Shown: piece by piece, positions 13,639 through 60,018 of the stretch | Position numbering within the stretch: the stretch's first letter is position 1 | How the letters are laid out: every line of letters starts with the position of its first letter | Origin: a virus | Virus record (IMG/VR): IMGVR_UViG_3300008267_000005 | Location: 110,943-174,942 of that record | DNA: 64,000 nucleotides | Direction: 5' to 3' (one strand) | The notes under the pieces: generated by a model | What the model saw: the letters and a program-made list of their open reading frames with translations, nothing else | Told to the model about the DNA's origin: nothing | Database searches by the model: none | Made by a program: the position numbers and the translations under genes

Positions 13639-15447
13639 ATGTCAGAAAACAAGGAAGATAAATCCGGTAATTTTTGGTCAACAGCTAAAATAGAAAAACT
13701 ACTTTTTGAGGCTGAAGAAAATGGAATTGACTATAAAGAGGTTGATAACCCTTTTCATGAAAACGAACCAGAGCTAAGAAGGGGCAATGTACTTTTTGAA
13801 TACACAGACTGGGAATTAGAAGAAATAAAGAAATGTGCATCTAATGTTGTGTACTTTGCAAACAACTATTGTAAAGTGATGACTGATGATGGTATCAGGC
13901 AAATTGAATTAAGAGATTATCAGATCCAAATTCTGAATCAATATCAACATCACAGAAAAAATGTATTCGTTTCCCCTAGGCAATCAGGAAAGACTATAAC
14001 ATCCTCTATATTCCTCTTATGGTACTTGCTATTCAATTTTGAGAAAAATGCCATGATAATGGCAAACATCGGTGATACAGCTGCAGAATTGATGGATAAG
14101 ATTAAAGTTATCCTTAAAGGATTACCTTTCTTTTTGAAACCTGGTATATTGGTTTACAACGTAATGACTATGAAGTTTGATAATGGTTGCAGAATAATGG
14201 CAAAAACAACCACTAAAACATCTTCCATCGGTTATACCATTCACATGCTCTACATGGATGAGTTTGCACACATCAACCCAAACTTCATAAACCAATTCTT
14301 CAAATCCGTATACCCAACTATTTCATCTTCACAAATTTCAAGAGTAATCATAACATCCACACCGAATGGGATGAATAAATTTTGGGAAATTTATAAAGGT
14401 GCAATTGAAAAGGAAAACGATTTTAATCCGATAAGAGTAGAATGGTGGCAAATACCTGGAAGAGATGACGAATGGAAGAAAAGAGAAATAGCTGCACTAG
14501 GATCAGAAGAAGATTTCAATCAAGAGTATGGATGTCAATTCTTATCGTCATCTAGACTTCTCCTTGATTCCCAAAGCCTCAAAAGACTCAAAATCAACGA
14601 GCAGGATTTTATACACCATGATCTATTCCCATTTGAAAATAGTCACGTAGATTATTCTAACCTTATTTGGCATCCCAAATTTGATCCAACGTCCATATTT
14701 GAAAAGGAAGGACAGAAATTTTATCTTTCGATTGATACTGCAGGTGGAGGTGGAGGTGACTATTCGGTAGTAAACATTTTCAAAGTTGCCCCAATGCCAT
14801 CTAACATCATAAAATCTAAGAAATTTTATGAGGACGAAAGTGACTTTTTCTGTCTATTACAGGTTGGAATTTTTAGATCAAATCTTATCCAGATAGATGA
14901 ATTGAAGGTGTTTTTAGAGATACTGGTAACACAAATTCTAGGAGTGGACAACACTAGAATCGTAATTGAGATTGATTATAAGGGAGAGATTCTAATGGAC
15001 AAGCTTTTAGATTCGGAAGAGTTTTATGAAGAAATGTTCGTTTATACAAGGCACTCAGAAGCATCTACTAGATTAAAGCCAGGAGTTAAGCTCACATCTA
15101 AGAACAAAGAAAAATACTGTTACGATCTCAAAATACATGTAAAAAACAGTAAAATAATTCCGTCAGAAAAAAACACAGTACACGAATTAGCTAATTTTGG
15201 AATGAACCAGGGAGGAAGTTTTACTAGCCAAATTGGTAAGGATGATATTGCAATGACTTTGGTTGATATAAACTGTATCTTTGAAACTGGTGATTTTCAG
15301 GACACAGTAACTGACCTTTATGATGGTTTAAACGAGAAATTTAAAAAGTCTATAGAAGAAAAATTAAAAGAGAATACTGAAGCTTCCTCTGCAAAAGGAG
15401 GGGAAATGTCCAATTATACTTTCTTGAATGGTCTCCTTGATTCTTAA
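13639..15447 (+). CDS. 17: gp17 large terminase (packaging ATPase-nuclease)
   Basis: The 602-aa protein is very close in size to T4 gp17. Walker A is SPRQSGKT at residues 112-119, Walker B LYMDEFAH at about 204-211, and the coupling motif TSTPNG at about 238. The C-terminal RNase H-like nuclease begins at LSIDTAGGGGGDYS (Asp at about 365), with a second acidic site at VIEIDYKGE (about 447). It docks on the portal, cleaves concatemers and translocates DNA. The ATG follows a TTTTTTT tract. Confidence 0.95.
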   Translation: MSENKEDKSGNFWSTAKIEKLLFEAEENGIDYKEVDNPFHENEPELRRGNVLFEYTDWELEEIKKCASNVVYFANNYCKVMTDDGIRQIELRDYQIQILNQYQHHRKNVFVSPRQSGKTITSSIFLLWYLLFNFEKNAMIMANIGDTAAELMDKIKVILKGLPFFLKPGILVYNVMTMKFDNGCRIMAKTTTKTSSIGYTIHMLYMDEFAHINPNFINQFFKSVYPTISSSQISRVIITSTPNGMNKFWEIYKGAIEKENDFNPIRVEWWQIPGRDDEWKKREIAALGSEEDFNQEYGCQFLSSSRLLLDSQSLKRLKINEQDFIHHDLFPFENSHVDYSNLIWHPKFDPTSIFEKEGQKFYLSIDTAGGGGGDYSVVNIFKVAPMPSNIIKSKKFYEDESDFFCLLQVGIFRSNLIQIDELKVFLEILVTQILGVDNTRIVIEIDYKGEILMDKLLDSEEFYEEMFVYTRHSEASTRLKPGVKLTSKNKEKYCYDLKIHVKNSKIIPSEKNTVHELANFGMNQGGSFTSQIGKDDIAMTLVDINCIFETGDFQDTVTDLYDGLNEKFKKSIEEKLKENTEASSAKGGEMSNYTFLNGLLDS

Positions 15448-15525: not shown

Positions 15526-18500
15526 ATGGCCAAACAAGTTAAACTTGATTTATCATTATTCAAAGCTTCTGGTGTTTACACATTAGAATTCGATGCTTCG
15601 GAAAACATTATAATCAACCCATCAACAATCCGATTGGTAGTTGGTTATTCTAATGTCGGACCTTTTAACACTCCTGTGTATTGTCCAGACATCACTACTT
15701 TCCAGGCAGTTTTTGGAGGAATTGATAAAGCATTAGAGAAAAAGGGATCTTTCTTCCATAGATCAGTTTTAACCTGCCTTCAGTCTGGTCCTGTTTTCGC
15801 TCTTAATCTAAGAATACTTAACAACAGTGTAGATGTTAATGGCGATCCAGATTTCGCTGAAGGAGCAGATGTTGCAAGATATAGAGCTTTCTCTGTTGAC
15901 ACAGAGGAACAAAATGGTAACAATGCAACAGGTGGTTATTCAGATCCTTTGACTAAGCAAGATAAATTAGTTTCTTCTTACTATAACAAAGAAAAGTTCT
16001 GGTTCCCAGACACTGAGTATTTATTGGCCACTGAAGACACTTCTAGCTCACAGCCTGATTCTAGAAAGCTATTCAGCTTAGTAAACCTTGGTCAGAGCCC
16101 AGTATCAATCATCGTTAGAAAATCCCTTGATTCTAGATTCCCATTAAAAGGGTTTGATATAACTGCAAGAGAATATTTTGGTCCAGACAACGTGCCTTCT
16201 TATATGAACCAATATGATTATTTGTCAGATTGGTTTGTAGATGTTATTGCAGTTAGTGGAAACTGGACAGATTACCAGGCTTTGGCAAACGATCCAGTAT
16301 ATAGTGCTTACTTTACATCTAAAGGATTCATTAAATCTAAAATCGATGATTTCCTTTCTATAGATGGAGTAAACATTGTTTTAACTGTTACTGGAACACT
16401 CATTCCTAACTTCACTGACCAAAACGGAACTCTAAGATATGTTCAGACATTGATTAATAATCAAACTCAACAAACTGGAATTTTCTGTGCAGTTAATGAA
16501 GAGGCTTTAGACGATTTAGAGAATAATTCTTCAGTAATTGACTTAGTTGGTCACCACTTGGTTGATGAAATTGGTGCTGATGCTGATATCACTTCAGTTC
16601 CAAAGAATTTGAACTTCCTTTCTTATAGCCAAAATCTCTTTGCAGATTTTACTTATTATAGAAATGTAGATGGAGCTACTGGAGGTACAGCTATAACTGA
16701 CACAGGAGTTTCACCAGGAACTGGATTTGATGAACTTCCTGAAACAGGAACATTGGTTGAGGATTCAACTTTGTTCAGCAACACTGGACCTGGTATCTTG
16801 TACACAGATATGAATAATGCTTGGACAATTTCTGGAAGTAAAATTTTATTCGATACCAAGTTTACTAATCCAACATATCACGACGACCAAATTACAGCTG
16901 TACAGGAATTCTTAGATATTACAACTACATCTCCTGCAGCTAAATGGGTCCTTGGTAAAGTTACTAGTTCACTTCCTACCCCTGGTTATTTAGGATTTTA
17001 TGTAGGAGATCTTGTTAAATTGAAGGTTATCTCATCCGAGACAATTACAAATTCAACTTTAGCAGCTGGTGTTCAAACCCAGGTTAGAATGAAACTTACT
17101 CACCCATTAATTGGTGCAACAGTAGGTACAACTTATGTTCAACCTTGGTACGAAACGAATAAAAACTCAGCAGATGCTTATCAAATAGGAAGTCCAGATT
17201 ACTTTGATAATGATGATGTTTACTTCTCGCCTGATATTCCAATCGGAGATGATAGCTATTTGGCTTACGAAAATTCTGTAGCTTATCAGGATTGGGTAAA
17301 AGGAAATATTGGAGATGGAGACGTTGTTTGGCAAGACGATACTGGAACTCTTTTACAATATTTGAAATTCGAAACAAATGTTGATAGAGATGGATTCAAC
17401 GTATTGGTTGTGAGAGCGTTTACAGACGATACTTTCGACACTCCTGAAGCTATTGCTACTTGGGATACTTCATATATCAGCTCATTGCCAGTAGGAACTA
17501 ATCTTACTACAGGTGAAGCTTTCAACATCGTTTCTACTGCTGGTAACGTCAGCGATTATGTTGACATTATCACTCAGTTAGCTCCGAATGTTGTTGAACT
17601 TACTGAAGCTGAAGCTGAAGCGTCAGGAATTAAAGTTGGAGATCTATTGGTATCTACTGACACTCAAACTTACGATAATCCATTAACTGAAAACCTTCAG
17701 TCAAGATTAACAAGAGTTCTTGAAGTTAAATCCGTATCTTCAGCAGCGTCGCCTGGAGTTTATACGATACAAGTAAAAACAGAAAGACCTATCCAATTGT
17801 ACCCAGGTGCAACAACAAGAGTTTGGAAATTCAAGAACATACAGGAATTTGTTAAGACGTTTAACTTCACTTATCTCCCAGGTGCTGCAATAAAAGCTGC
17901 TTCTGTACCTAACGGAACAGATACAAGAATGAACGCAATTCTTGATGTGATGACAGACACAAATTTGGCTAGAACACTAGCTGATACTGATGTTATTACA
18001 TTCAGATACATTGTGGATACTTTTGATGGAGGTATTCAACCAAACTGTAAATACCAACTTACTAGATTGGCTAAGAACAGACAGAAGTGTATGGCAATAT
18101 GCAACGCACCTTCTATGCAGAAATTCTCTGATTCTATAGATCCTAGATTTACTTCTGCACCAACGTCAACTGATCCAGCACCAATTCTTCAAGCAAGATA
18201 CATTGCAGATGGTGGTAATTTGAGTTTGAATCCTTCATTCACATTCTCTTTACCTGATGAAGACTTAGGAGCTAAATTCTCTGGTTTCTTTGCTCCTTTC
18301 TTGACAATTAGAGAAAACGGCAAGAATTTGAATGTTCCACCAGCTGCTTACGTGTCAAACAACTTCATACGTAAGTTTATCACAGGTGAACCTTATTCAA
18401 TAGTAGCAGGTGTTAAAAGAGGTATTATCTCAGCAGGTAATTTAGTTGGTCTTGAATATGATTTCGATTTAGAAGATAGAGAATATTTGGAACCATTTGG

Positions 18501-18921
18501 TATCAACCCAATCATCCGTAAGAGAGGAATTGGAGTAGTTATCTACGGTAACCAAACAAGCTATCAAAGAACTAACTCAGCATTCAATAACCTCCATGTT
18601 AGAGATCTTCTGATCACTATTGAAAGCGCTATTGAAGAGATTCTTTCAAATTATGTATTTGATTTCAACGAAGACTCAGTAAGACTTGAAATTAAAACAT
18701 TGGTAGATAATTACTTAACAGGTGTAAGATCTGTAGGTGGTATTTATAACTACTTGAGCATTATGGATTCTTCTAATAACACACCAGCAATCATAGATCA
18801 GAATCTAGGTATTATAGATGTTATAATCGAACCTGCAAGGGGAATCCACAAATTTATTAACAGATTAACGGTAACAAGAACTGGAGGCATTGCTTCTGGA
18901 GGATTTATCCAATTTTCTTAA
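15526..18921 (+). CDS. 18: Tail sheath protein (gp18), greatly enlarged
   Basis: The 1,131-aa protein compares with about 659 aa in T4. The N-terminus (residues 1-110) has the sheath signature GVYTLEFDASENI...RLVVGYSNVGPFNTPVY. The C-terminal about 300 residues carry the conserved handshake domain: PPAAYVSNNFIRKF, INPIIRKRGIGVVIYGNQTS, the helix LHVRDLLITIESAIEEIL and the strand DVIIEPARGIHKF. The extra roughly 470 residues lie in the middle, are Thr/Asp/Gly-rich and are probably surface-exposed domains on the contracted sheath. Codon use looks biased, in keeping with high expression. Two late-type promoter motifs precede it and a perfect palindromic terminator follows. Confidence 0.92.
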   Translation: MAKQVKLDLSLFKASGVYTLEFDASENIIINPSTIRLVVGYSNVGPFNTPVYCPDITTFQAVFGGIDKALEKKGSFFHRSVLTCLQSGPVFALNLRILNNSVDVNGDPDFAEGADVARYRAFSVDTEEQNGNNATGGYSDPLTKQDKLVSSYYNKEKFWFPDTEYLLATEDTSSSQPDSRKLFSLVNLGQSPVSIIVRKSLDSRFPLKGFDITAREYFGPDNVPSYMNQYDYLSDWFVDVIAVSGNWTDYQALANDPVYSAYFTSKGFIKSKIDDFLSIDGVNIVLTVTGTLIPNFTDQNGTLRYVQTLINNQTQQTGIFCAVNEEALDDLENNSSVIDLVGHHLVDEIGADADITSVPKNLNFLSYSQNLFADFTYYRNVDGATGGTAITDTGVSPGTGFDELPETGTLVEDSTLFSNTGPGILYTDMNNAWTISGSKILFDTKFTNPTYHDDQITAVQEFLDITTTSPAAKWVLGKVTSSLPTPGYLGFYVGDLVKLKVISSETITNSTLAAGVQTQVRMKLTHPLIGATVGTTYVQPWYETNKNSADAYQIGSPDYFDNDDVYFSPDIPIGDDSYLAYENSVAYQDWVKGNIGDGDVVWQDDTGTLLQYLKFETNVDRDGFNVLVVRAFTDDTFDTPEAIATWDTSYISSLPVGTNLTTGEAFNIVSTAGNVSDYVDIITQLAPNVVELTEAEAEASGIKVGDLLVSTDTQTYDNPLTENLQSRLTRVLEVKSVSSAASPGVYTIQVKTERPIQLYPGATTRVWKFKNIQEFVKTFNFTYLPGAAIKAASVPNGTDTRMNAILDVMTDTNLARTLADTDVITFRYIVDTFDGGIQPNCKYQLTRLAKNRQKCMAICNAPSMQKFSDSIDPRFTSAPTSTDPAPILQARYIADGGNLSLNPSFTFSLPDEDLGAKFSGFFAPFLTIRENGKNLNVPPAAYVSNNFIRKFITGEPYSIVAGVKRGIISAGNLVGLEYDFDLEDREYLEPFGINPIIRKRGIGVVIYGNQTSYQRTNSAFNNLHVRDLLITIESAIEEILSNYVFDFNEDSVRLEIKTLVDNYLTGVRSVGGIYNYLSIMDSSNNTPAIIDQNLGIIDVIIEPARGIHKFINRLTVTRTGGIASGGFIQFS

Positions 18922-18937
18922 AAATATAAATTAGAAG

Positions 18938-18969
18938 AAAAAGGCTTAGATTAATCTAAGCCTTTTTTT
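18938..18969. terminator. Palindromic bidirectional terminator
   Basis: A perfect 24-nt palindrome (18941-18964, arms AAGGCTTAGATT/AATCTAAGCCTT) is flanked by A's and T's, so it works in both directions. It ends the sheath transcript. The last codons and TAA stop of the minus-strand endonuclease lie within it. Confidence 0.85.
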
Positions 18970-20718: not shown

Positions 20719-21291
20719 ATGGCAGGTTTACCACATTATACCAGTTCGAAGGCTTCTATTAACAAATACGAACCAGTTTTCCTGAACCAGTTTGAGGTAT
20801 TAATATCTCCTCCAACTGGTGTAGCTGCTCCACAAGGAAATCCAGGAAGTGGAAATATTTTATTAGAGCAAGTTACAAGAGTATCTGGTTTACAGGTAGA
20901 TCAGAACCCAGGAGAAATAACTCAGCAATTCAAATTTGCAAAGAGATATTATTCTGGAGCAGCTCCTCAAAGAACTGGTTTAGACGTAGATATTGAATTC
21001 GAGATTAACCTTGATGACAATAATTCTATGTATGTGTTCAAGATACTTCGCCAGTGGTCAGATTTAGTTTACAATCCTATAACTGGTGCTATGGGACTTA
21101 AGACAAATTATTCAGGTAACATTTTAATCAGTGTTTTCAATAAAGCTGGTGACGTGTTCAGAAGAATTAATTTGAAAGATTGCTTCCCTATTACACCAAT
21201 TAACGAAATGGCTCTTAACTATACCCAAACAGGTATTTATAAGATCAACGTGACATGGGCAGTAGATTATTTCGAAGATACATTTATATAA
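20719..21291 (+). CDS. 19: Tail tube protein (gp19), first paralog
   Basis: The 190-aa protein follows the sheath gene as gp19 does in T4 (163 aa). It has tube hallmarks: NQFEVLISPP near residue 23, RVSGLQVDQNPGEITQQFKFAKR, a central beta-hairpin region, and NLDDNNSMYVFKILRQWSDL followed by VYNPITGAMG. It ends VTWAVDYFEDTF. It polymerises into the inner tube through which DNA passes. The next gene is a close paralog 10 nt downstream. Confidence 0.9.
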   Translation: MAGLPHYTSSKASINKYEPVFLNQFEVLISPPTGVAAPQGNPGSGNILLEQVTRVSGLQVDQNPGEITQQFKFAKRYYSGAAPQRTGLDVDIEFEINLDDNNSMYVFKILRQWSDLVYNPITGAMGLKTNYSGNILISVFNKAGDVFRRINLKDCFPITPINEMALNYTQTGIYKINVTWAVDYFEDTFI

Positions 21292-21301
21292 TTAGAAGAA
21301 A

Positions 21302-21880
21302 ATGGCAGGATTACCACATTTCAGTTCATCTAAAGCAGCTGTACAACTTTATGAACCAGTTTACTTAAACCAGTTTGAGGTTATAATACAGCCACCAGTA
21401 GGTGTTTCTAATCCTTTAGGAAACGGAGGAAGAACATTACTTGTTGAGAACGTGCTTTCAATTTCTGGTCTTGCAGTTGATAAGAACCCAGGAGTTGCTG
21501 AACAAAGATATAAGTTTTCAAGAAGAAGATATGCTGCTGGAGCAGTAGATGATACTGGTGTAAAAGTCAGAATTGATTTTGAAACAAACCTTGATGACAA
21601 TAATAGCAATTATGTTTTCAAGACTTTAAGACAATGGTCTGACCTAGTTTACAACCCATTAACAGGTGCAACTGGTATTAAGTCTGTTTATGCTGGAGAC
21701 ACTTATATTCTTATTTCTATATTTAATAAGCAAGGTGATGTTTTCAGAAGAGTTAAGCTCGTAAACTGTTTCCCTGTTGACCAGATCAAATCGCTCGACC
21801 TTGATTACACTAACGGAACTACCCCTTACAAAGTGGCACTTTCCTTTAGAGCTGATTACTTCGAGGATCTTTTTAACTAA
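21302..21880 (+). CDS. 19: Tail tube protein (gp19), second paralog
   Basis: The 192-aa protein is collinear with the preceding tube protein, sharing MAGLPH(Y/F)(T/S)SSKA, the NQFEV(L/I)I block, NLDDNNS-x-YVFK, LRQWSDLVYNP and the (A/R)DYFED ending. Both copies keep all conserved blocks, so neither looks like a pseudogene. One may be the main tube and the other a specialised ring, as T4 gp54 and gp3 relatives cap tube ends, or they may alternate. A terminator follows. Confidence 0.88.
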   Translation: MAGLPHFSSSKAAVQLYEPVYLNQFEVIIQPPVGVSNPLGNGGRTLLVENVLSISGLAVDKNPGVAEQRYKFSRRRYAAGAVDDTGVKVRIDFETNLDDNNSNYVFKTLRQWSDLVYNPLTGATGIKSVYAGDTYILISIFNKQGDVFRRVKLVNCFPVDQIKSLDLDYTNGTTPYKVALSFRADYFEDLFN

Positions 21881-29433: not shown

Positions 29434-30011
29434 TAAAACCAATATACACAACAGACTCGCAATACATCAAGTATCTTGATTGCAATCCTGGTGTTTATAG
29501 AAAAGTAGTTTTTCAGTCATGTAACTTAGAGATAAAAGAGGGAGTTAATGTTTTATCTAGAACTTCCTTATGTGATTTTAAATTGGAAGGACTAGGAAGT
29601 TCAGAACTGGGAGGATGTGGTGGATCTGCGAAAAGAAATATAAATCTACCTGCTGGATACTCATACACTCTCACAGCTCCTGAAGTTGGCCAAGCACAAG
29701 GTGAAGTACAAATGATTGTGATCAAAGCCAAGTACCACCAGGATGTGCATTCAGAAGACCGATATCTCTATTGGGAATACAAGGGGAATATCTACCCTAT
29801 GAATTCATTAATGGTTCTTACAGGAAGAACTGAGCCCGAGATTCCTTGGCAAGGATGGGATTTAAGTTACTATTCCAATAACCCTCCAAGTCCTGTTTTT
29901 TCTCCTGCAATTTATCCTCCTATTTCTTCTCCAGACCCCACTTTCGGAGGTATTCTTTTTAGTAATCCTGGAACAAGTGATGTCCAGCTTGAAATATTTA
30001 TTTTTAACTAA
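29430..30011 (+). CDS. Beta-rich virion/fibre protein, copy A
   Basis: The 193-aa protein starts with ATG overlapping the preceding stop (ATGA). It contains FQSCNLEIKEG, MIVIKAKYHQDV, YKGNIYPMNSLMVLTGRT, a WDL block and a final GGILFSNPGTSDVQLEIFIF strand. The next protein has the same blocks in order, so they are tandem paralogs. Size, Tyr/Pro content and location before collagen-like fibre genes suggest a surface decoration or fibre-tip role. Confidence 0.7.
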   Translation: MIKPIYTTDSQYIKYLDCNPGVYRKVVFQSCNLEIKEGVNVLSRTSLCDFKLEGLGSSELGGCGGSAKRNINLPAGYSYTLTAPEVGQAQGEVQMIVIKAKYHQDVHSEDRYLYWEYKGNIYPMNSLMVLTGRTEPEIPWQGWDLSYYSNNPPSPVFSPAIYPPISSPDPTFGGILFSNPGTSDVQLEIFIFN

Positions 30012-30571
30012 TGGCTACACCTCCACAAGTATGTAACACTATAGAATTTGAAGGTGCTATCTTTCAAAGATGCAATCTTCAAGTAGTAAGAGGAACAACT
30101 GTGGCAAGAGAAATAAGTTTTTGTGATACAGATATCACAATTAACAACTTTTCATCTTTTAGTGGATGCGTCTATCCGAACTCCTCACTTATTCTAAATG
30201 CAGAGGGTTTAGGACAACTCGGATTTATCATGATAAAGGCCTCTTATCCAAGTACACTTCCAGTGGCTAGTAGATTTATCAATATAATTTACCAAGGAAA
30301 CTATCTTCCGATGGCGAATCTTACTATCTTAACAGGAAATCCGAGTAATTATTCACCTGCTTTTGTGGACAGAGCATGGGATTTAGATCCTAATGGTAGC
30401 GATATTGAATCTCCATATTTTTCAGACGGAGGTATGCTTCTTTATAATCCACATTCAGTTAGGGTTAATGTTGAGGTAATTTTAGCTGGTGGATTTTATA
30501 TAGATGATAACCCAAGCGATGAATTCATAGTATCTGAGGATGGAGATTTTATAATTTCGGAGGGAAACTAA
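30011..30571 (+). CDS. Beta-rich virion/fibre protein, copy B
   Basis: The 186-aa paralog of the preceding protein has [47 protein letters not shown] and [20 protein letters not shown]. The C-terminus adds an acidic Asp/Ser/Glu tail absent from copy A. Start and stop overlap as TAATG. The divergence between copies suggests separate binding partners or receptors. Confidence 0.7.
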
Positions 30572-35427: not shown

Positions 35428-35922
35428 ATGAAAAACATAAAGAACTTAAGACCTAATAAAAACTCAGTCTATCAACAAGGACTTTATGTTCCGACAAATC
35501 CGAAAAAGTATATAGGGGATATCAACAACATTATTTACAGAAGTTCTTGGGAAAGAAGATTCTGCCAGTATTGCGATATGAACCCAAATATTACTAAATG
35601 GAGTTCAGAAGCAATTTGTGTTAAGTACTGGAGTCCAATCGATAAGAAAGAGCACAATTACAACATAGATTACTATATCCAGGTAAAAAAAGGTGATGTT
35701 CTAGAAAACTGGTTAATAGAAATCAAACCAGAAGATCAGTATGCTTTAGATAAAAGACCAAAAGAACCAACTGGAAACTTAACTGAGAAGAAGATTCGAT
35801 CATATAATGAAAAGCTTAAGATCTGGATCACTAACAGGGCAAAGTTTGAAGCTGCTAAAAGATTTGCAGAAGATAGAGGCTACAAGTTCGGAGCTATTAA
35901 TGAGAAATTTATAATGCGATGA
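35428..35922 (+). CDS. 4: gp4-like head completion protein
   Basis: The 164-aa protein has YRSSWERRFCQYCDMNPNIT, then KWSSEAICVKYWSPIDKKEH and NYNIDYYIQVKKGD...WLIEIKPEDQ. This is the family of T4 gp4 and its phage relatives, with a TnsA-like nuclease arrangement (Glu in SSWE, Asp in NIDYY, ExK in IEIKP). T4 gp4 is needed to complete DNA-filled heads for tail joining. Length is close to T4 gp4 (150 aa). It overlaps the next gene (ATGA) and precedes the portals. Confidence 0.88.
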   Translation: MKNIKNLRPNKNSVYQQGLYVPTNPKKYIGDINNIIYRSSWERRFCQYCDMNPNITKWSSEAICVKYWSPIDKKEHNYNIDYYIQVKKGDVLENWLIEIKPEDQYALDKRPKEPTGNLTEKKIRSYNEKLKIWITNRAKFEAAKRFAEDRGYKFGAINEKFIMR

Positions 35923-36512
35923 AATCCTTCCAGGAAAGGTTCGAAGAATATCAATTGAGTGTCTCTGGTCTGTCTTCCTTATCCGATGCTTCATTTCTGT
36001 TTTGGAGAGAAAATTATCTTGACAAAAAATCAACCTTACAGATTTCTGATTTTCTAGTTGGTAAAATATATTCCTTTGATTACAACGATAAACTCGATAA
36101 ATCAAAGAAATTCGTAAACAGAAGACCTCTTTTGTTTTTTATGGGATTCTTTAACTCCCAAGATAAACTTGTATTTAGTGGGCTAGATTTAGTTCTTATT
36201 CCTCCTCAATATAGACTTGCTTTTTTCAGTAGAATAAGTAGTGTCTATGAATCCCAAATATCGACCAATGTTCAAAGGATAGAAAAAGGTGATGTTTTAG
36301 AACAGGTGCAATTAAAATGTGACTATCCAACTATGGATTTAATCATGAAAGGAATTCCTTGGAAGAATTCTTATAGAGCTTGGGATTTACAGAAAATAAG
36401 AGATGCAAAAGAAATTACCTACGAAGATTGGACTAGAATAGTATATCTGCATACCAGGGCAATTGAAGGGACCCCGATTGAAGAGATATATAAGAAAAAC
36501 TCACTAGCATAA
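35919..36512 (+). CDS. Phage structural or assembly protein of unknown type
   Basis: The 197-aa protein contains a constrained pattern: GKIYSFDYNDKL...RRPLLFFMGFF...LVFSGLDLVLIPPQYRLAFF. The same pattern (small-protein barrel with 'LGxNLxYLPxxYR') occurs in unassigned proteins of T4-like marine phages. Placed between gp4 and the portal, it may be a head-completion, DNA-end or neck factor. Its last codons contain the GATATATA motif of the portal gene. Confidence 0.65.
   Translation: MKSFQERFEEYQLSVSGLSSLSDASFLFWRENYLDKKSTLQISDFLVGKIYSFDYNDKLDKSKKFVNRRPLLFFMGFFNSQDKLVFSGLDLVLIPPQYRLAFFSRISSVYESQISTNVQRIEKGDVLEQVQLKCDYPTMDLIMKGIPWKNSYRAWDLQKIRDAKEITYEDWTRIVYLHTRAIEGTPIEEIYKKNSLA
36485..36495 (+). 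promoter_or_regulatory. Late-promoter-like motif inside preceding gene
   Basis: GATATATAAGA lies 27 nt before the first portal ATG, within the coding sequence of the upstream gene. Keeping the motif in coding sequence at the standard spacing argues for function. Confidence 0.6.
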
Positions 36513-38116
36513 TGGCTGGATTTACAGATGGCAAAAAAACTTTTTTTAGCTCTATTGTAGAGAATATTAAAAAAGTGGGAAATTTCGGAATGGCTTATGG
36601 AGATCTAGTCGTAAAAAATTCCTATGCAGTTGGTGTTACTGAGGCACAATTTCTTAAGAAAGGTGGTATAAAGGATGAGTCATTCCTTTTCGGGATAAGA
36701 AAAGCAGATACCACAACAAAACAATACATAGCTTATTTTGATAAGGATTTCAAGAACAAAAGACATTATGTTCAAGGGTTTGCACAAAATCCGGAAATAG
36801 AATTCATATTAGATACTGTATGTGATGAATCGATAGTTTATGATGATAAGAATTTCTGGGCTTATTTCTCTTTCATGCAACATGAAGATGTCGATAAAGA
36901 AATCTATGCTCAGACCCAAAAAAGATATAAAGAAATTTATAACCTATTTGGATTCAATCAGGATATCTCAGCTTGGCATTTATTCCGCAAATTTTTAGTA
37001 GAGGGAAATCTTGCTTTTGAAATAGTTTTCGATAAGAAAGGAAAAAGTATAGTTGGATTCAAAGAAATAGATGCAGCATCGTTAGTTCCAACTGTAGAAG
37101 CTCAGCCTGATGGATCTTTCGTTGATATCTGGATTCAATATCCTGATAATCCTTCCTTAACCAGAAAATTGTACGATTCGCAAATCATCTATATAAGTTA
37201 CGCCAAGGGTGGTGGTACAGCTTCGAGAATAAGCTACATTGAAAGATTAATAAGGTCATTCAATTTGCTTAGAATCATGGAGCACACTAGGATAATTTGG
37301 AACGTGATGAATTCCTCTTATCGTATGGCTATGACTGTACCAATAGGTACAAAATCACCACAAAAAGCCAAACAAACTCTAGGTGAACTTATGTCAATTT
37401 ACAAAGAGGACATAAGATTAAATACAGACTCTGGTGAGTTAACAGTTGACGGAAGGCCAAAAATACAATTCTTCAAGAATTATTTAATGCCATCTTCTCC
37501 TAATGGAACTCCAGATATTCAGCCTTTACCAGGAGCTGGTGATGCCACTGCATTTTCTGATACAAAGGCTCTTCAATATTTTGCAAACAAATTAAGGATA
37601 GATTCAAAAGTTCCAGTTTCAAGATTTGGAAGAGAAGACAGCGGATCTGAAGGAACTATTTCCTTTGGAGCAGATGGATTGGATATGGAAGAAATTAGAT
37701 TTAGTAAATTCATAAACAGGCTAAGGTCAATCTACCAAGAAATCTTAATGAAACCCCTCTGGGTCCAATTTTGTTTGGACTTTCCGCATCTCAAAAATGA
37801 CTATATAATTAAATCCGAATTTGGTCTTGATTACGTGAAAGAGAACATGTTTAAAGAAGCCAAGGAGATGGAAATTATGACAGCAAGAAAAGATCAAGTG
37901 ATTAAAATATTGGGCTTGAAAAATTCAGAGGGTAAACCATATTTTAGTTTACAATTCTTGCTCGACAGATATCTTGGAATGACAGCTCAAGATAGAATTG
38001 ATAACGAAAAAGCTAAGAAAGAAGCTGCTGAGAAGAAAAAAGAAGCAGAAGGAAAAGAGGGTGAGGGCACGGAAGAAACTAAACCTGAAGAAGCTGCAGG
38101 AGAATTTAAATTATAA
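36512..38116 (+). CDS. 20: Portal protein (gp20), first paralog
   Basis: The 534-aa protein is the size of T4 gp20. T4-like blocks include EFILDTVCDESIVYDDKNF, LLRIMEHTRIIWNVMNSSYR, VPIGTKSPQKAKQTLGELMS, YKEDI and the C-terminal DMEEIRFSKFINRLRSIYQE, then MKPLWVQFCLDFP. The tail is Lys/Glu-rich and disordered. The dodecameric portal nucleates the prohead and is the docking site for gp17. Late-type promoter 27 nt upstream. A full-length paralog follows 2 nt after the stop. Confidence 0.93.
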   Translation: MAGFTDGKKTFFSSIVENIKKVGNFGMAYGDLVVKNSYAVGVTEAQFLKKGGIKDESFLFGIRKADTTTKQYIAYFDKDFKNKRHYVQGFAQNPEIEFILDTVCDESIVYDDKNFWAYFSFMQHEDVDKEIYAQTQKRYKEIYNLFGFNQDISAWHLFRKFLVEGNLAFEIVFDKKGKSIVGFKEIDAASLVPTVEAQPDGSFVDIWIQYPDNPSLTRKLYDSQIIYISYAKGGGTASRISYIERLIRSFNLLRIMEHTRIIWNVMNSSYRMAMTVPIGTKSPQKAKQTLGELMSIYKEDIRLNTDSGELTVDGRPKIQFFKNYLMPSSPNGTPDIQPLPGAGDATAFSDTKALQYFANKLRIDSKVPVSRFGREDSGSEGTISFGADGLDMEEIRFSKFINRLRSIYQEILMKPLWVQFCLDFPHLKNDYIIKSEFGLDYVKENMFKEAKEMEIMTARKDQVIKILGLKNSEGKPYFSLQFLLDRYLGMTAQDRIDNEKAKKEAAEKKKEAEGKEGEGTEETKPEEAAGEFKL

Positions 38117-38118
38117 CT

Positions 38119-39765
38119 ATGGCTGGATTTATAGATAACTTAGGAAAATTCAATCCCAACATATCGAGGATTATTAAAAATCTCAGCGGGTTAGGAAGCT
38201 TTGGAATGGATTACAAAGATCTTGTGATTCAAGACTCTATGGCTATTGGTATATCTGAAGCCAATATGAGGGAAAGATTCGGTTTTTCTGAGGATGACGA
38301 AGATTTCATTTATAGTATAGCTGCTCAAGACACATCTAATAGGAAATATATCGCTTATTTTGATAAAGACTATCCTTACAAAAGAGATTTCTTAAGAACG
38401 TTTGCCCTCAATGCTGAAATAGAATACATTCTAGACACTATTTGTGATGAAGCCATAGTGTACGATGAGAAAAACTTCTTTTGTCATCCTAGCATGATTA
38501 ATATGGATTTAAAGGAGGATGTGGTACAAGCGCTTAGGAAGAACTTCAGAAAACTTTATGTACTTCATAATTTTGCCAATGGGTTAACTGGTTGGCAATA
38601 TTTCAGACAACTTTTAGTTGAAGGGTTTCTTGCTTTTGAGATCATATACTCTAGCGATGGTAAAGAAATTGTGGGATTCAAAGAACTCGATGCAACAAGT
38701 TTAACCCCTGCAGTTGAAAAAAGACCCGATGGCACAAGAGAATCTATCTGGTGGCAATACTATGGTGAAACTACAAGACAAAGAAGACTTTTGGATGCCC
38801 AAGTTATTTACATATCTTATGCTAAGGCCAACACTGCATCAAGAACATCTTATACGGAAAGATTGATTAGATCTTATAACTTGTTAAAGATCATGGAGCA
38901 TTCTAGGATTATCTGGAATGTTATGAACTCGCAGTTTAGAATTAAAATGACAGTTCCTATCGGAAGTAAGTCACCACAAAAGGCAAAAGAGACACTTGGC
39001 GAGCTTATGTCAGTTTACAAGGAGGATATTAAACTCGATACAACATCAGGAGAACTTGCTATTAATGGAAGACCAGATTTACAGTTTTATAAAAACTATC
39101 TTTTTCCTCAACAAGCAGGGAATAGTGTTAAAGTAGAAACCATTAATGCTCAAGGGCCAAACTTGAACATTATGGATTCTGTTGTTTATTTCTATAACAA
39201 ACTCAGACAGGATTCAAAAATACCTTACAATAGATTTAGTGCAAGATGGGGGGTTGGGGCTGGAAATCCTTTTAAAATCCCAGCAGATGGATCTGAAAGA
39301 GATGAAGTAAGATTTTCAAAGTTTGTTACAAGATTAAGGTCTATATTCCAAGAGATTGTTGTTAAACCCCTTTGGATTCAAATGTGTTTAGATTTTCCAA
39401 GCCTTAAGAATGACCCAGAATTTAGAAGTCAAATAGGGGTTAAGTTCGAAAGTGACAATGTTTTTGGTGAATCCAGAGAAATTGAGCAACTTATTAAGAA
39501 AATCGATTTTGTTACATCATTGGGAGAAATCAAAGAAAATGTAAACGATGAAGAAGTACAATATTTCAACCAAGACTTCCTCATTGAAAGGTTCTTGGAT
39601 TTAAACTATGATGACATTAGGATGAACAAAACTTACATTGAAAAAAGTCAAGGAGCTTCTGGTGTAGCAACAGAAGGGGGAGCAGCACCAGCTGAAACTA
39701 CTCCAGCTGCTGAAACACCTGCGACAGAAACTCCAGCTGCCGAAACACCACCTGCAGAAGCATAA
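38119..39765 (+). CDS. 20: Portal protein (gp20), second paralog
   Basis: The 548-aa protein is collinear with the upstream portal throughout: N-terminal MAGF, YIAYFDKD, EYILDTICDEAIVYDEKNF, RTSYTERLIRSYNLLKIMEH, VPIGSKSPQKAKETLGELMS, DEVRFSKFVTRLRSIFQE and VKPLWIQMCLDFP. The tail differs (Ala/Pro/Thr/Glu repeats of AETPA type). All portal blocks are intact, so both are probably made. No GATATATA precedes it, so it depends on upstream transcription. A weak terminator follows. Confidence 0.9.
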   Translation: MAGFIDNLGKFNPNISRIIKNLSGLGSFGMDYKDLVIQDSMAIGISEANMRERFGFSEDDEDFIYSIAAQDTSNRKYIAYFDKDYPYKRDFLRTFALNAEIEYILDTICDEAIVYDEKNFFCHPSMINMDLKEDVVQALRKNFRKLYVLHNFANGLTGWQYFRQLLVEGFLAFEIIYSSDGKEIVGFKELDATSLTPAVEKRPDGTRESIWWQYYGETTRQRRLLDAQVIYISYAKANTASRTSYTERLIRSYNLLKIMEHSRIIWNVMNSQFRIKMTVPIGSKSPQKAKETLGELMSVYKEDIKLDTTSGELAINGRPDLQFYKNYLFPQQAGNSVKVETINAQGPNLNIMDSVVYFYNKLRQDSKIPYNRFSARWGVGAGNPFKIPADGSERDEVRFSKFVTRLRSIFQEIVVKPLWIQMCLDFPSLKNDPEFRSQIGVKFESDNVFGESREIEQLIKKIDFVTSLGEIKENVNDEEVQYFNQDFLIERFLDLNYDDIRMNKTYIEKSQGASGVATEGGAAPAETTPAAETPATETPAAETPPAEA

Positions 39766-44263: not shown

Positions 44264-47200
44264 ATGCAGGAGCTTAGTCAGATATCAATAAAGCAATTAC
44301 TTGCCTCCAACACAATTGGAGCAAACAATCAGATCACCAATGCTAATTTTGCACAACTGCAAGAAGGTTTTACTCTTCTTAACAGAGCATTTGGAATATC
44401 AATCCAGGATAAATCTCTTAACTTTCCTACAGGTAAATTAAACGTTGGGAGTTTGAAATCCAACTTGATTAGGCTTCCTATAGAAGGAACAAGTTCGATT
44501 CAATTAAACGGAGCAAATGGTGATATTCTTTCTAGTGGATTAAACACTGTTAATGACATTTATGCAGGTGGTAATGTTATAGTAGGTAATGCCAACAAAG
44601 GTGGAAGATTAAGACTTGTTCTTGACAGAACGTATACGGACGATACAATATTACCAGGAGTAGCTGGACAAATCAGATTTACTGGTAATGATTACGAAGC
44701 TTATTTTGAGGTAGGTGAAGTAAGATCTACTTTTTCATTTACAATTGGATCTACAGGTACCACAGGACAAAGCATTTCTGTTTTATATAACGGAGTAACT
44801 GCAGGTACAACCAGTTGGAATACTACTAACACTATAACAGCACAGCAGCTTGTTCTGGCGATAGCCAGCAACACAACTGGTCCTTGCTTAGCAGAATCTA
44901 ACACAAACACAGTAACAATTGTAGCACTCCCAGGATTAGGATCAAGCTCAAACGGTGATGCTATAACTTTTGCAGGAGCAATTCCAACCAATGTCACTGG
45001 TGGATCTATGTCAGGCGGTGCAGATGGTATTGACCAATGGGTTAGTTTGATAACTGCAACAGGGGGAAATGGTCCAACTGGTCCAACTGGAGCTGCTGGA
45101 GGACCAACTGGAGCAACAGGTGTTCAAGGTCCAACTGGACCTACAGGATCAATAGGTTTAACGGGTCCAACTGGAACCACAGGTCCAACAGGATCTGGAG
45201 CTACTGGTCCTACAGGAACTGATGGAGCTACTGGTCCAACTGGATTAACTGGCCCAACTGGAGCAACAGGACCTCAGGGAGCAAAAGGAAGTGCAGGAAA
45301 TAATGGTGCTACAGGTGCCACTGGACCAACTGGATCAGTTGGTGCTACTGGTGCTGGAGTTACCGGTGCAACTGGTGTAACTGGACCAACTGGATCTACA
45401 GGTAGTGCAGGATCAACTGGAGCATCTGGTCAAAGTTTTAGAACTGGGTCTGGAGTTCCTTTGCCTTCACTGGGAAGTAATGGTGATACGTATTTAGATC
45501 TAGATACTGATAACGTTTACACGAAAGCTTCTTCAGTTTGGAGTTTAGTTACCAACATTAAAGGAGCTACTGGAACTACAGGAGCTACCGGCACTACCGG
45601 TGCTACTGGAACAAATGGATCCACTGGTGCAACTGGACCAACAGGAGCCGCTGGTGTCACAGGAGTTACTGGTCCAACTGGGGCTGATGGTGTAACAGGA
45701 GCAACCGGCCCTGCAGGTTCACCTGGAACTATGCCATATTTAGATCTTTCTAATGTGGCTAATGCACAATCATTAAGTACAGGAGGTAACATTCCAGCTA
45801 GATTTGATACAACTAATCTTATTGATTCATCATATTTTGCAGTAGGTAATTATGTTCCTTCCGGAATAACTGGAACTTATTTCGAAACTTTGGTATCTGG
45901 AAAATACTTTGTTAGCTATAAAATAGGATTAGACAATGTTACTGCCTCAGCATCTTCTTTGATAACCACAAAACTCATGTCGTCAACTTCTTCTCCTGTT
46001 GAAGTTGCTAACCTGAAGGCTTTCAAAACTATTGAAGATGTATCATCTGGTTCTGAATCCCCTTTTGAAACCGTGGTGGTAACAGGGATTATAGATGCAG
46101 TAGCCGGGGATCAGTATTGGGTTAAAGTTGAATATGATGCAGGTGGGGTTGGAACTGTTAATATAACACTGGGCGACACAGGTATATCAGTACTTGCCCT
46201 TCAAGGACAAATGGGACCTACTGGACCTACTGGAACAGCTGGTGCTACCGGTCCTTCTGGAGGTCCAGTTGGACCTACTGGACCAACAGGAACAGGTGTA
46301 ACTGGTCCCACAGGATCAGCAGGAGCTACTGGACCTACTGGAACAGCTGGTGCTACTGGACCAACTGGAACAGGTGTTACTGGACCAACGGGAACAGCTG
46401 GAGCAACTGGATCTACTGGAGCCACTGGTACTGTTTCTGTAACATCTCTTACTTATTCAGCATTTTATGCTCTCTTTTCAGGAGGCACAATGACTCCAGG
46501 AACTCTGTATAGAATAAACGATTTTAGAACAGTCCATTATATCCTTGAAACCGCAGGTACAGCCACAAATACTGGCTCGACAGAAGAAATTTATGTACTT
46601 GCGACATCAGCTACAACTATAGACCAAAGAGTGATTTCAGAGGATTACCCTGAGGATATCATTTATTGGGATCCTGATCCAAGCAACTTTTATGGAGATG
46701 AAGCTTTTACTACTTCTACTTCACCTTCTACAATTGTATCTGGATTTAGAGGAGCTATAACTTATAGAAAAGATACAAACAGAAATATCGAAGGCTATTT
46801 CGATTGGAGGGCTTTTAAGTTCAGAAGGTGGCCAGCTAGTACTTCTTATCCTGTTTGGGATTCAGTTTCCCCTCCAACTACCTACGCAGCAGGTGACGTA
46901 GTTAGGGTTTCTGCAGGAGCAGGAAATGGTGGGTGGTTTGGATGCTTAGAATCCGATGGATCCGGGATTAATCCAGAAGAGAATAACAAATGGGTTAAAC
47001 TTGTCGATGGATTTAGCCTTTATTTTTTCACTCAAGATATTAATTACACAGTAATATTAGGGTTCGGAACTCCTAGTTTTGCTCTGAATAGAGGATCAGG
47101 ATTCAGAGATTTCCTTGCTATAGATCCTGCAGATTTTGCTTCTATTAGAAATATTTCTTTCGGAAAAAAGAGAACCACGACAGATTTTAATAATCCTTTC

Positions 47201-56188: not shown

Positions 56189-58234
56189 ATGGAAAAAAAC
56201 CAAGATTACGTACTGATTCTAGAAAAATCAACTGTAAATCTTTCAAGTAAGAAAGAAGGAGGAGAATATTTTCTAGAAGGTGTAGCAGCAGTTTTCGGAA
56301 TTGAGAATTCTAATCATAGAATTTACGAGGAGAAGGAATATTTGCCACATCTTGATTATTTGAAAAAGAAGATTGAACAAAATCGTTTGGTTGGTGAATT
56401 AGATCACCCAAAAGAATTCGATGTTTCTTTAAAGAACATATCTCACATTATCACAGATTTAGATTATGATAATAAAGACAGATGTGTAAAGATCAAGGTT
56501 AAGCTTCTTGATACTCCAGCCGGTAAAATTGCACAGAATCTTGTTGATGCAGGTATTCCTATTTCTATTTCTTCTAGAGCAGCAGGTAACGTAAAAGAAA
56601 ATAAAAAAGTAGAGATCAAGAAGATCTTTACTTATGATCTAGTAGCTGATCCTGGTTTTGAAAATGCTCAATTAGAAAGAGTTAGCGAAAGTTTATACGA
56701 AAGCTTAGGTTTTACTTCCTTTGCAGAAGAGATCAAAAGTTCAATAGTTTCTTCTTTAACCAATATAAACGAGAGCTTAGGATTGAGAAAAAATTCTAAC
56801 ACGCAGATATATAGAATTAAAGATATAGAGAAGATCTCTAAACTTTTAGAAAATACAAATAATACAAAGAATATGGACAATAACTTTGTCACAGCAGAAG
56901 AATTAAACGAATATTCACTCATTCTTAAAAAGGAAATGGATTCTTTGAAGAATGAAATGAAATCCTTTTCAAAAGGTTCTACTTCTAGTAACAACGATTC
57001 AGCATTAGAGGAGAGAATTCAAAGACTTGAAAAGTATTCAGAATATCTTGCAGAGAACTTAGAATCTGCAATTAACTTTGGTGATTACTTAGCAGAGAAT
57101 TTAGAAGGTTCTATTTCTTATAATAAGTATCTTGCTGAAAATCTTGACAAAGCTATTTCATATGCTAAATACTTAGCAGAGCACGTAGATGGCAACATTT
57201 CTTATTCAGAATATATTGCAGAGAATCTTGACAACAATATTGCTTACAGCAAATATATCGCTGAGAATTTAGATAAGAACATTTCCTATTCAGAGTATCT
57301 TGCTGAAAACTTAGATAAGAACATTTCTTATTCTGAGTATCTTGCTGAGAACTTGGACAAGAACATCTCTTATGCTGAATACTTGGCTGAAAACGTTGAC
57401 AGAAACATTTCTTACTCAGAATATCTCGCAGAGAAATTGGATAAGAACATCTCTTATTCTGATTATCTTGCTGAGAATCTAGATAAGAGCATTTCTTATT
57501 CAGATTACCTTGGTGAGAAAGTAAACGGAAACATTAACTACTCAGAATACTTAGCTGAAAAAGTTAAATCTGGTATTGAATACTCACAATATTTGGCCGA
57601 GTCTATCAATAACAAAGGAATTAAAAATTCCGGTAATGATATGGCTAAACAAATTAATGATTCAGTAGAAAAAGGAAAAAGAACTTCTGGTTTCTCAGGT
57701 GATTACAATTCACTTTCTGGCAAAGTCGATCAATTAATTGAATCACTTAGCAAGAACAAAACTGAAGAAATCGTAAACGAAAATAAATATTCTTTCTTAA
57801 AGCTTGTTGATGAACAAACAAAGAAAGGATTTATCTCTTTGAACGAGGCCGAAAAACAAAAGGTCGTTAAAGCTCTTAATGAGCAGAATTACAGTTCAGG
57901 TATGGACGTAGTTCAAATTATGGGATCTGCTCTAACTGAACAAGCTCAGTCTGGAGAAAAATTCCTCGATATGATACCACAAGATTTGGTACCTGTTTGG
58001 AACTCTTTGAATGAATCACAGAAAGCATCAATTGTTGCTCAAAGTAAATTCTATCACTTAGACACTCCTTATCAGATTAACAACTTCTGGAGAACTAGAG
58101 GATTTCAAGCTCCACAGGCTAATTTGGAAAGATTAGACGAGTCCCAAAACCCTAATAATGCTACGAACAGCGGAATTAGCAACAGCTATATCGCAAACAT
58201 CGCAGCTGAATTAGACAAAAGATTTAAAAAATAA
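56189..58234 (+). CDS. 21/22: Prohead protease fused to scaffold (gp21-gp22)
   Basis: The 681-aa protein has a herpesvirus/T4-type (S78-like) protease at residues 1-165: GELDHP with His73, PISISSRA with the catalytic Ser at 128 or 129, and YDLVADPGF. A linker holds a possible self-cleavage site NINE195/S. Residues 283-478 are fourteen 14-residue repeats, consensus YSEYLAENLDKNIS, expected to form a long coiled coil like scaffold gp22. The C-terminal about 200 residues include several LNE sites and a capsid-binding-like end. In T4 these are two genes. Met229 (56873), after an internal GATATATA, could start a separate scaffold. Confidence 0.88.
   Translation: MEKNQDYVLILEKSTVNLSSKKEGGEYFLEGVAAVFGIENSNHRIYEEKEYLPHLDYLKKKIEQNRLVGELDHPKEFDVSLKNISHIITDLDYDNKDRCVKIKVKLLDTPAGKIAQNLVDAGIPISISSRAAGNVKENKKVEIKKIFTYDLVADPGFENAQLERVSESLYESLGFTSFAEEIKSSIVSSLTNINESLGLRKNSNTQIYRIKDIEKISKLLENTNNTKNMDNNFVTAEELNEYSLILKKEMDSLKNEMKSFSKGSTSSNNDSALEERIQRLEKYSEYLAENLESAINFGDYLAENLEGSISYNKYLAENLDKAISYAKYLAEHVDGNISYSEYIAENLDNNIAYSKYIAENLDKNISYSEYLAENLDKNISYSEYLAENLDKNISYAEYLAENVDRNISYSEYLAEKLDKNISYSDYLAENLDKSISYSDYLGEKVNGNINYSEYLAEKVKSGIEYSQYLAESINNKGIKNSGNDMAKQINDSVEKGKRTSGFSGDYNSLSGKVDQLIESLSKNKTEEIVNENKYSFLKLVDEQTKKGFISLNEAEKQKVVKALNEQNYSSGMDVVQIMGSALTEQAQSGEKFLDMIPQDLVPVWNSLNESQKASIVAQSKFYHLDTPYQINNFWRTRGFQAPQANLERLDESQNPNNATNSGISNSYIANIAAELDKRFKK
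56806..56816 (+). promoter_or_regulatory. Internal late-promoter-like motif in the 21/22 gene
   Basis: GATATATAGAA lies inside the fusion gene, 67 nt before in-frame ATG 56873, which would begin a 453-aa scaffold without protease. The spacing is longer than at other motifs. Confidence 0.4.
57035..57622 (+). repeat. Fourteen tandem 42-bp (14-aa) repeats
   Basis: Fourteen in-frame units with no gaps. The central ones are nearly identical (YSEYLAENLDKNIS) and the outer ones more diverged, as expected from internal duplication. Fourteen residues equal two heptads, fitting a coiled coil with Tyr, Leu and Ile in core positions. Confidence 0.9.
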
Positions 58235-58245
58235 GATCTAATAAA

Positions 58246-60018
58246 ATGCAACTCTTAAATCAAAACGAGATCTACGAAACATGGTCTCCCATTATTGAGA
58301 GCAAGACCGGCATGACTGATCGTTCAAAAGTAGAATGGCTTTCTAAATATTGCCACTTCCACTCACTTAACGAATCTGCTGGAGCTTACAACTCTCTCGG
58401 TGCTTTAAATGGTATGGGTGCCATCATGCCTCCTGGTAACTACTCCGGTAGTAATGCAGCAGCTGGCCCAGGTAATGCTGGTTTTTACTACAACAACACT
58501 TACAACGCTGGTACTCCTTATGTAGGTTCTGGTGATAAGTTCCCTTCACTTCTTCCATTGGCTATTCAGGTAGCTGCTAAAACCGTTGGTTTTGACATTG
58601 TTCCTGTTATTCCAATGAGCGGACCAACAGGGGTACTTTCTTATCTTGACTATGTGTATGCAGGTGGTACTTTGTCTGGTACTTCAACAGATACTACTAC
58701 CAACTTTACTGCAAACACACCTGATATGATTAAGGTGCCTATCGCTGTTGCTTCTCCTGTATTTGGTACTCTAACAGTTGGTAGTTACTACATCATCTTA
58801 GTTACTGGAGCTACTGCATCATCCGATTCTGCTAAAGGTAAATTTGTTGGATACTCACGTATTGACGGTTTCCCAATTTTCCAGATCACTGCATTAACTT
58901 CTGGTGATTCTATTGCCACAACAGTTACTGCTAACTCTGAAATTCGTTTAGCATCAAGCCAGGCTAACGACCAAACTATGACTACAACTGGTAACGTTCT
59001 TGCTTTCTCCGGTGGTAACGCAGTATTGGTTAAGACATTAGAAGATCACATTCAAGGTTTCTCTGGTGCTGGTCAATCTAACACTAATAACTGGCAAGGT
59101 CCATACGTAGATGGCACACAAAACTACGATCCAATGTTAAGAGGTGTTGCAGAATCAACTTATTACAAGTCACTTGGTCTTTCTACATTCACTAAGTTTG
59201 TAGAAGCTGGTACTTTCCAAGTTGCTGCTTCTGTTACAACTGAGCAAATCCAAGACCTTAACAAACAGTTCGGTATCGACGTAGTTTCTATGATCGAAAA
59301 CGCTCTTGTTAACGAGGTATCTCAGGCTATTAACAAGCACATTCTATCAAGAGGTTTTGCTCTTGGCTGGTCAAACCACTCACAGTTCTTAGTAACTGAG
59401 CAAACTAACCTTAACCTTAACTTGGTAATTGGTGGTGCTGCTTCAGGTTATGCAGTTCCAGATTACGTAGGTAAAATGGGTCTTGCTATCACAGGTTCTG
59501 CTAAGCCAGGTTCAGTTGCTGGTCCTGCTTCAGGTACTTTTGAGAACTTATCAACAGTTCAAAGAAGACTTTACAGCCGTATTTTAGCTGCTGCTAACGT
59601 AGTTGCTAACAGAGGTCGTAGAGGTCCTGCTAACTTCATCGTTACTAACTCACAAATCGCGTCTGCTTTACAAGACATCAGTCAGTTCACATTCGCTCCG
59701 TTTACTAACACTCTTACTCAGAACAACGGTACACTTTACCCAGTAGGTTCACTTGCTGGTATGACTGTATATGTTGATCAGAACATGCAGTTCAGTGATA
59801 CAAGAGTATTAGTTGGTAGAAAAGGTGCTGATGATGAGCCAGGTATGAAGTTCATGCCTTACATGATGGCTGAATCTATTCAGACAATCTCTGAAGGTAC
59901 AATGTCACCGAAGATCGCAGTTAAATCAAGATACGCTCTTGTTGAAGCTGGTCACCTTCCAGAAACAATGTACATCTGCTTCCACGTTAACGCTGGAACA
60001 AACACTGCTATTATCTAA
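58246..60018 (+). CDS. 23: Major capsid protein (gp23)
   Basis: The 590-aa protein compares with T4's 521. The N-terminal delta region ends at HSLNE43/S, a probable protease site. Conserved blocks include PLAIQVAAKTVGFDIVPVIP, MSGPTGVLSYLDY, FGIDVVSMIENALVNEVSQA, RRGPANFIVTNSQIASAL and the C-terminal KFMPYMMAESIQT...VKSRYALVEAGHLPETMYIC. Codons are more biased (GCT, GGT, AAC) than in neighbours, as expected for the most abundant virion protein. Ends with tandem stops TAATAG and a strong terminator. No GATATATA immediately upstream, so it relies on the upstream promoters. Confidence 0.95.
   Translation: MQLLNQNEIYETWSPIIESKTGMTDRSKVEWLSKYCHFHSLNESAGAYNSLGALNGMGAIMPPGNYSGSNAAAGPGNAGFYYNNTYNAGTPYVGSGDKFPSLLPLAIQVAAKTVGFDIVPVIPMSGPTGVLSYLDYVYAGGTLSGTSTDTTTNFTANTPDMIKVPIAVASPVFGTLTVGSYYIILVTGATASSDSAKGKFVGYSRIDGFPIFQITALTSGDSIATTVTANSEIRLASSQANDQTMTTTGNVLAFSGGNAVLVKTLEDHIQGFSGAGQSNTNNWQGPYVDGTQNYDPMLRGVAESTYYKSLGLSTFTKFVEAGTFQVAASVTTEQIQDLNKQFGIDVVSMIENALVNEVSQAINKHILSRGFALGWSNHSQFLVTEQTNLNLNLVIGGAASGYAVPDYVGKMGLAITGSAKPGSVAGPASGTFENLSTVQRRLYSRILAAANVVANRGRRGPANFIVTNSQIASALQDISQFTFAPFTNTLTQNNGTLYPVGSLAGMTVYVDQNMQFSDTRVLVGRKGADDEPGMKFMPYMMAESIQTISEGTMSPKIAVKSRYALVEAGHLPETMYICFHVNAGTNTAII

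Follow-up and report, generated by a model that had tools for sequence, protein, structure and literature searches.

Does a T4-like phage with two portal genes build one portal from both, or does each gene serve an end of its own? The portal is the ring by which DNA passes into the phage head and out again. In T4 it is encoded by one gene and forms a homomeric 12-mer (PMC4493910, PMC9958956), one portal gene per genome being usual for T4-type systems, whereas the genome analyzed here has two. The DNA under study, referred to as the window, is a stretch of 64,000 nucleotides comprising bases 110943-174942 of IMG/VR record IMGVR_UViG_3300008267_000005, a virus record that is linear and 174,942 bases long.

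A Tandem Pair of T4-Type Portal Genes

The original prediction, of two full-length T4-type (gp20) portal genes in tandem encoding 534 and 548 aa and both starting MAGF, was confirmed by the window ORFs and by matches to Pfam Portal_T4 (PF07230) and phrog_213. Both genes lie on the + strand, 2 nt apart:

36512..38116, + strand: portal copy 1 (gp20-type), ORF of 534 aa; PF07230 209.7 bits, phrog_213; copy 1 clade of the portal tree (support 99)
38117..38118, + strand: 2-nt gap between copy 1 and copy 2
38119..39765, + strand: portal copy 2 (gp20-type), 548 aa, without the C-terminal motif; PF07230 204.9 bits, phrog_213; copy 2 clade of the portal tree (support 96)

Both proteins cover positions 9-432 of the 433 of PF07230, whose curated cut-off is 22.9 bits, and they are 48% identical to each other over 528 aa. 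A portal search of the whole 174,942-base record returned these two only, with no third portal gene. Membership in the T4 portal family follows from the profile matches and not from the sequence blocks initially quoted as T4-type: blocks such as TVPIG(T/S)KSPQKAK are common to both copies and to their lineage, but not to T4 or the single-copy relatives, which have other residues at these positions. Among PDB sequences, T4 gp20 chains were the best match of both copies in profile searches, and T4 gp20 was also the best Foldseek match for both (E 1e-18 and 4e-18), the query being AlphaFold models of low confidence (pLDDT 57 for copy 1 and 56 for copy 2).

The head and packaging context is likewise T4-type:

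13639..15447, + strand: large terminase (gp17 type), single copy; phrog_5989 E 5e-57, no paralogue
15526..18921, + strand: tail sheath, single copy; phrog_34521 E 2e-119, no paralogue
35428..35922, + strand: head-closure protein (T4 gp4 type), single copy; phrog_218 E 2e-44, no paralogue
35919..36512, + strand: DNA end protector (T4 gp2 type), single copy, overlapping the start of copy 1 by 1 base; phrog_429 E 1e-8
56189..58234, + strand: head maturation protease, single copy; phrog_207 E 4e-37
58246..60018, + strand: major capsid protein (gp23 type), single copy; PF07068 E 2e-39, 1 match in the record

Self-comparison of the 217 called ORFs of this possibly incomplete record found no paralogue of the capsid protein, terminase, protease, sheath, gp4 or gp2. 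The window also holds two adjacent weak paralogues without a family match (29430-30011 and 30011-30571, 26% identity) and a collagen-like GPTG-repeat protein of 1,209 aa (44264-47893).

The Portal Pair in Relatives

IMG/VR was scanned with copy 1, copy 2 and a portal of a second clade (clade B, below), and contigs from many samples were returned. Both copies stand in tandem at 193 loci (loci being counted, some of which overlap on one contig); the intergenic spacing in relatives is 2-23 nt. All loci with one copy of this portal type are cut by a contig end, and every locus not so interrupted has both paralogues. The complete pairs comprise 76 distinct DNA versions and 68 distinct protein pairs. 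An assembly error, named beforehand as a result that would overturn the prediction, has a negligible probability of explaining the pair: nothing was found in its favor, and against it stand the 76 versions from many independent samples and the mirrored trees of the two copies. The two-gene portal is real, old and conserved, and dual-portal phages are a widespread group of uncultured T4-like phages. A fused portal, considered for seven relatives with open frames of ~1,100 aa over both copies, was rejected, the DNA of every pair having a stop codon between the copies. A different tandem of paralogues, 536 and 506 aa long, 31% identical and without a family match, was seen on one contig (L141, 6720-8330 and 8334-9854).

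In the phage collection, one copy matches 1,298 records at 1,300 places and the other 2,068 records at 2,070 places. A second matching place occurs in just two records, LR756501 and its twin LR756503, and a search of the whole LR756501 record found, besides the portal, only a short weak match of 62 codons; this match, to the end of the portal profile, lies at 15166-15351 on the - strand of LR756501.1 within a 101-aa frame. None of the ~2,070 matching records has two full portals, and for these records the earlier claim of one portal in known relatives is borne out. A literature search found no description of a duplicated, paired or heteromeric phage portal, and the two-gene portal is without a described counterpart in the literature and records searched. 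In the search for a host, one scan of a genome collection gave no match. A second, profile-based scan detected seven distant relatives, all in bins: three were of Bacteroidota and the others of SAR324, Clostridia and Erysipelotrichaceae.

One Duplication and Two Constrained Copies

A tree of 79 portals separates all copy 1 sequences (support 99) from all copy 2 sequences (96), each as a clade, and unites the two clades with a support of 97. Clade A (the window type) and clade B (~55% identical to it) recur in both the copy 1 and the copy 2 halves of the tree, and the phylogeny, proposed at the outset as a means of dating the duplication, therefore places a single duplication before the A/B split. 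The nearest relatives in the tree are an IMG/VR single-copy clade, LR756500-504, Lak, PAU and PTm1, with one full portal in each record tested.

Over unsaturated pairs, the median pairwise dN/dS of copy 1 is 0.011 (52 pairs) and that of copy 2 is 0.013 (46 pairs); judged by these ratios, both copies are under equally strong purifying selection and neither is decaying. The dN values of the two copies are correlated (r 0.970, slope 1.14 in clade B; r 0.955, slope 1.10 in clade A), in part because of shared ancestry, since shared history alone yields correlated rates. Redundancy, with one copy retained for dosage or in the course of being lost, appears very improbable: decay is refuted by the constraint on both copies (dN/dS ~0.01 in each), the copies are only 48% identical, and the pair has been kept through two deep clades. 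The point in favor of redundancy is a single in-frame TAG in copy 1 of two relatives (L039, 1542-3035; L167, 6001-7479), with the frame open on either side; this may be a sequencing error, nonsense or recoding being the other options.

A Late-Promoter-Like Motif and a Duplicated Tail Tube

A late-promoter-like motif precedes the pair:

36485..36492, + strand: late-promoter-like motif GATATATA, 27 nt upstream of copy 1

The expected number of motif occurrences in the window is 2.6 and the observed number 16, which none of 100 shuffles reached. Its sites include 20621, 32415, 36485, 44238 and 56168, several of them directly upstream of structural genes. As first noted for the window, it stands before copy 1 and not before copy 2, and this arrangement is general: in all 74 distinct loci GATATATA lies in the 150 nt ahead of copy 1, and in none of the 74 does it lie in the 150 nt ahead of copy 2. 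From its enrichment and placement, GATATATA is probably the late promoter of the dual-portal lineage, and copies 1 and 2 probably constitute one late transcription unit.

The portal is not the only duplicated structural gene of these phages:

20719..21291, + strand: tail-tube-like paralogue 1, of a pair that is tandem in dual-portal phages; phrog_3629 E 4e-8
21302..21880, + strand: tail-tube-like paralogue 2, duplicated on the stem lineage of the portals; phrog_45 and phrog_3629

A homing-endonuclease-like gene (18951-20543, - strand) lies between the sheath and tube genes of the window. Wherever a tested dual-portal record covers the region, it has the tandem tube pair, as seen in 8 records of clade A (window included) and 9 of clade B; another record breaks off within the tube genes, and five yielded no match. 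In single-portal records one tail tube, or none, was found. In the tube tree, the duplicated rows separate from the singles with values of 100/99, and the groups of tube 2 and tube 1 have values of 93/86 and 72/33, respectively. The trees place the tube duplication on the same stem as the portal duplication, and the two duplications on one branch therefore count as a single temporal coincidence rather than as many separate ones. A DNA conduit that is heteromeric in two places, with an obligate mixed portal ring and a two-paralogue tail tube that were duplicated on the same ancestral branch, is a tentative extension of these observations.

The joint duplication of portal and tail tube in one lineage would also be in keeping with a rival reading, in which each portal copy formed a homomeric ring of its own, giving two alternative particle types that are perhaps paired with the two tail-tube proteins. 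We regard this as quite improbable, as tandem genes behind a single promoter-like motif offer scant opportunity to transcribe the two copies differently, and the capsid protein, terminase, protease and sheath are all single.

A C-Terminal Motif on Opposite Copies

Each portal protein has a low-complexity tail at its C-terminus, and in the window the tail of copy 1 ends in a short motif:

38099..38113, + strand: codons of the C-terminal motif GEFKL of copy 1; similar ends are kept on clade A copy 1 and clade B copy 2

In clade A, EFKL, EFTL or a similar sequence ends copy 1 and is absent from copy 2, and in clade B, ESFTL or a similar sequence ends copy 2 and is absent from copy 1. Counted over the 68 distinct protein pairs (one, L168, being assigned to clade B by the tree), the motif is on copy 1 only in 36 of 39 clade A pairs and on copy 2 only in all 29 clade B pairs. 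Among the three exceptions, all in clade A, one has the variant DMGEI on copy 1 and none on copy 2 (L102), and two have DMGTI on both copies (L111, L113); weaker look-alikes such as EATL end some clade A copy 2 tails. Single-portal proteins often have acidic-aromatic or acidic-hydrophobic ends as well (SEFEF in LR756502, TNFDF in LR756504, EDF in T4, GEF in P-SSM7, and EDPMAM and DEMGGF in others), and some have none.

The pattern represents about two evolutionary events, not 68 independent ones. We prefer to read the motif as ancestral, the two clades each having lost it from a different copy; its gain or exchange would likewise require about two events. The portal complex seems, from this distribution, to need the motif on only one of its two copies. 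Since the motif is on exactly one of two co-expressed portals in nearly every phage, the two are most easily placed in one ring, and two separate rings are disfavored because each would be expected to need the motif, which one of them would be without. The crown is the innermost part of the T4 portal and terminates in its C-terminus, of which the final eight residues are disordered (PMC4493910); assembly of the scaffold core is nucleated by the portal (PMC9958956). Sliding-clamp binding, suggested by the acidic-hydrophobic form of the motif, was rejected, as it is unsupported by other protein ends of the genome.

Shared and Diverged Portal Regions

In the clip segment aligned to T4 288-299, both copies have P-I/V-G-[TS]-x-S-[PQ]-Q-K where the single-copy clade has PVGGKSKTR; the gp17-binding peptide of the T4 portal is residues 288-311 (PMC4493910). 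The terminase-binding part of the clip is near-identical between the copies, which are jointly unlike their single-copy relatives. Elsewhere, the identity between the window copies ranges from 0.88 in the first stem helix, the highest, through 0.30 in the tunnel loop to 0.22 in the crown, the lowest. Of 214 conserved positions, only 9 distinguish the copies in both clades, and no clear heteromer-specific interface is apparent among them. Three of the nine, noticed after the fact, are in the outer clip at T4 336-343, a clustering that is suggestive.

These differences bear on a further reading, in which one copy forms the portal ring and the other has been reassigned, as a replaced prohead initiator, a second neck ring or a packaging regulator. 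The copy-specific residues, with their three positions in the outer clip, and the divergence of the tunnel loop and crown would suit such a change of role. Reassignment is nevertheless unlikely in our estimation: both copies match the whole portal profile under equal constraint, their terminase-binding segments are alike, and a fixed role as the real portal is hard to assign to either when the clades differ in which copy has the C-terminal motif.

A Proposed Obligate Mixed Portal Ring

Our results suggest that an obligate mixed ring of copy 1 and copy 2 proteins is the best explanation of the pair, and a moderately probable one. The original prediction had offered a mixed ring, two capsid forms or reassignment of one copy; the first is favored because of the one conserved promoter-like motif, the tandem genes, the single-copy partners, the equal constraint and the C-terminal motif on opposite copies, and the other two fit less well. 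The mixed ring is supported further by the likeness of the terminase-binding clip in both copies and by the duplication of the tail tube on the same stem. Points against it are the small number of copy-specific positions, the few evolutionary events behind the motif pattern and the three clade A pairs that do not follow that pattern. Co-assembly, stoichiometry, with the ratio and order of the subunits, and the role of the motif are what we infer in this reading.

In a mixed ring, each gene would supply one of two types of subunit to the same portal. Both types would keep the wing, stem and clip, and through them meet a capsid protein, a terminase and a neck of a single kind. The C-terminal motif would be carried by one subunit type only, its end lying on the crown toward the head interior and the site of scaffold-core nucleation, where it probably docks a core or head protein and may be needed on some subunits only. 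The probable origin is duplication of a homomeric portal, followed by complementary loss that made both copies necessary, a course of events that could have left clade A with the motif on one copy and clade B with it on the other.

Such a ring would bear on the long-standing question of how twelve portal subunits meet a five-sided capsid vertex and a five-subunit motor. If the reading is true, a natural portal of two subunit types would break the twelve-fold symmetry in a defined way, which would be useful for asking which subunits must contact the motor, capsid and scaffold, and it would be a viral example of a one-protein ring that has become an obligatory two-part ring. The dual-portal lineage is present in many environmental contigs, and its proteins are testable by expression in laboratory strains without phage culture.

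Comparison with Known Systems

The closest solved structures are those of T4 gp20 (PF07230; PDB 3JA7, 6UZC, 9MKB), whose near-full family profile is matched by both copies; the T4 portals are described as rings of one protein (PMC4493910, PMC9958956), the product of one gene, in contrast to the two diverged tandem genes found here. Nearest in the tree are LR756500, Lak, PAU and PTm1, from huge or Bacteroidota phages, and the IMG/VR single-copy clade, whose portals are 41-47% identical to the dual-portal copies; many of these relatives share the MAGF start, but they have one full portal per record and one tail tube where found. T4 gp23 and gp24 are paralogues. Both capsid proteins are described in PMC9958956, and they resemble the present pair as two head proteins of the same fold that divide labor, although they occupy different capsomer positions, whereas both copies here are portals. 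In the fungal V-ATPase c-ring, a ring position has passed to two obligatory paralogues through complementary loss of interfaces (reviewed in PMC7982386). This duplicated ring subunit is an analogy for the mixed portal ring in an unrelated protein, co-assembly being experimental for the c-ring and conjectural for the portals.
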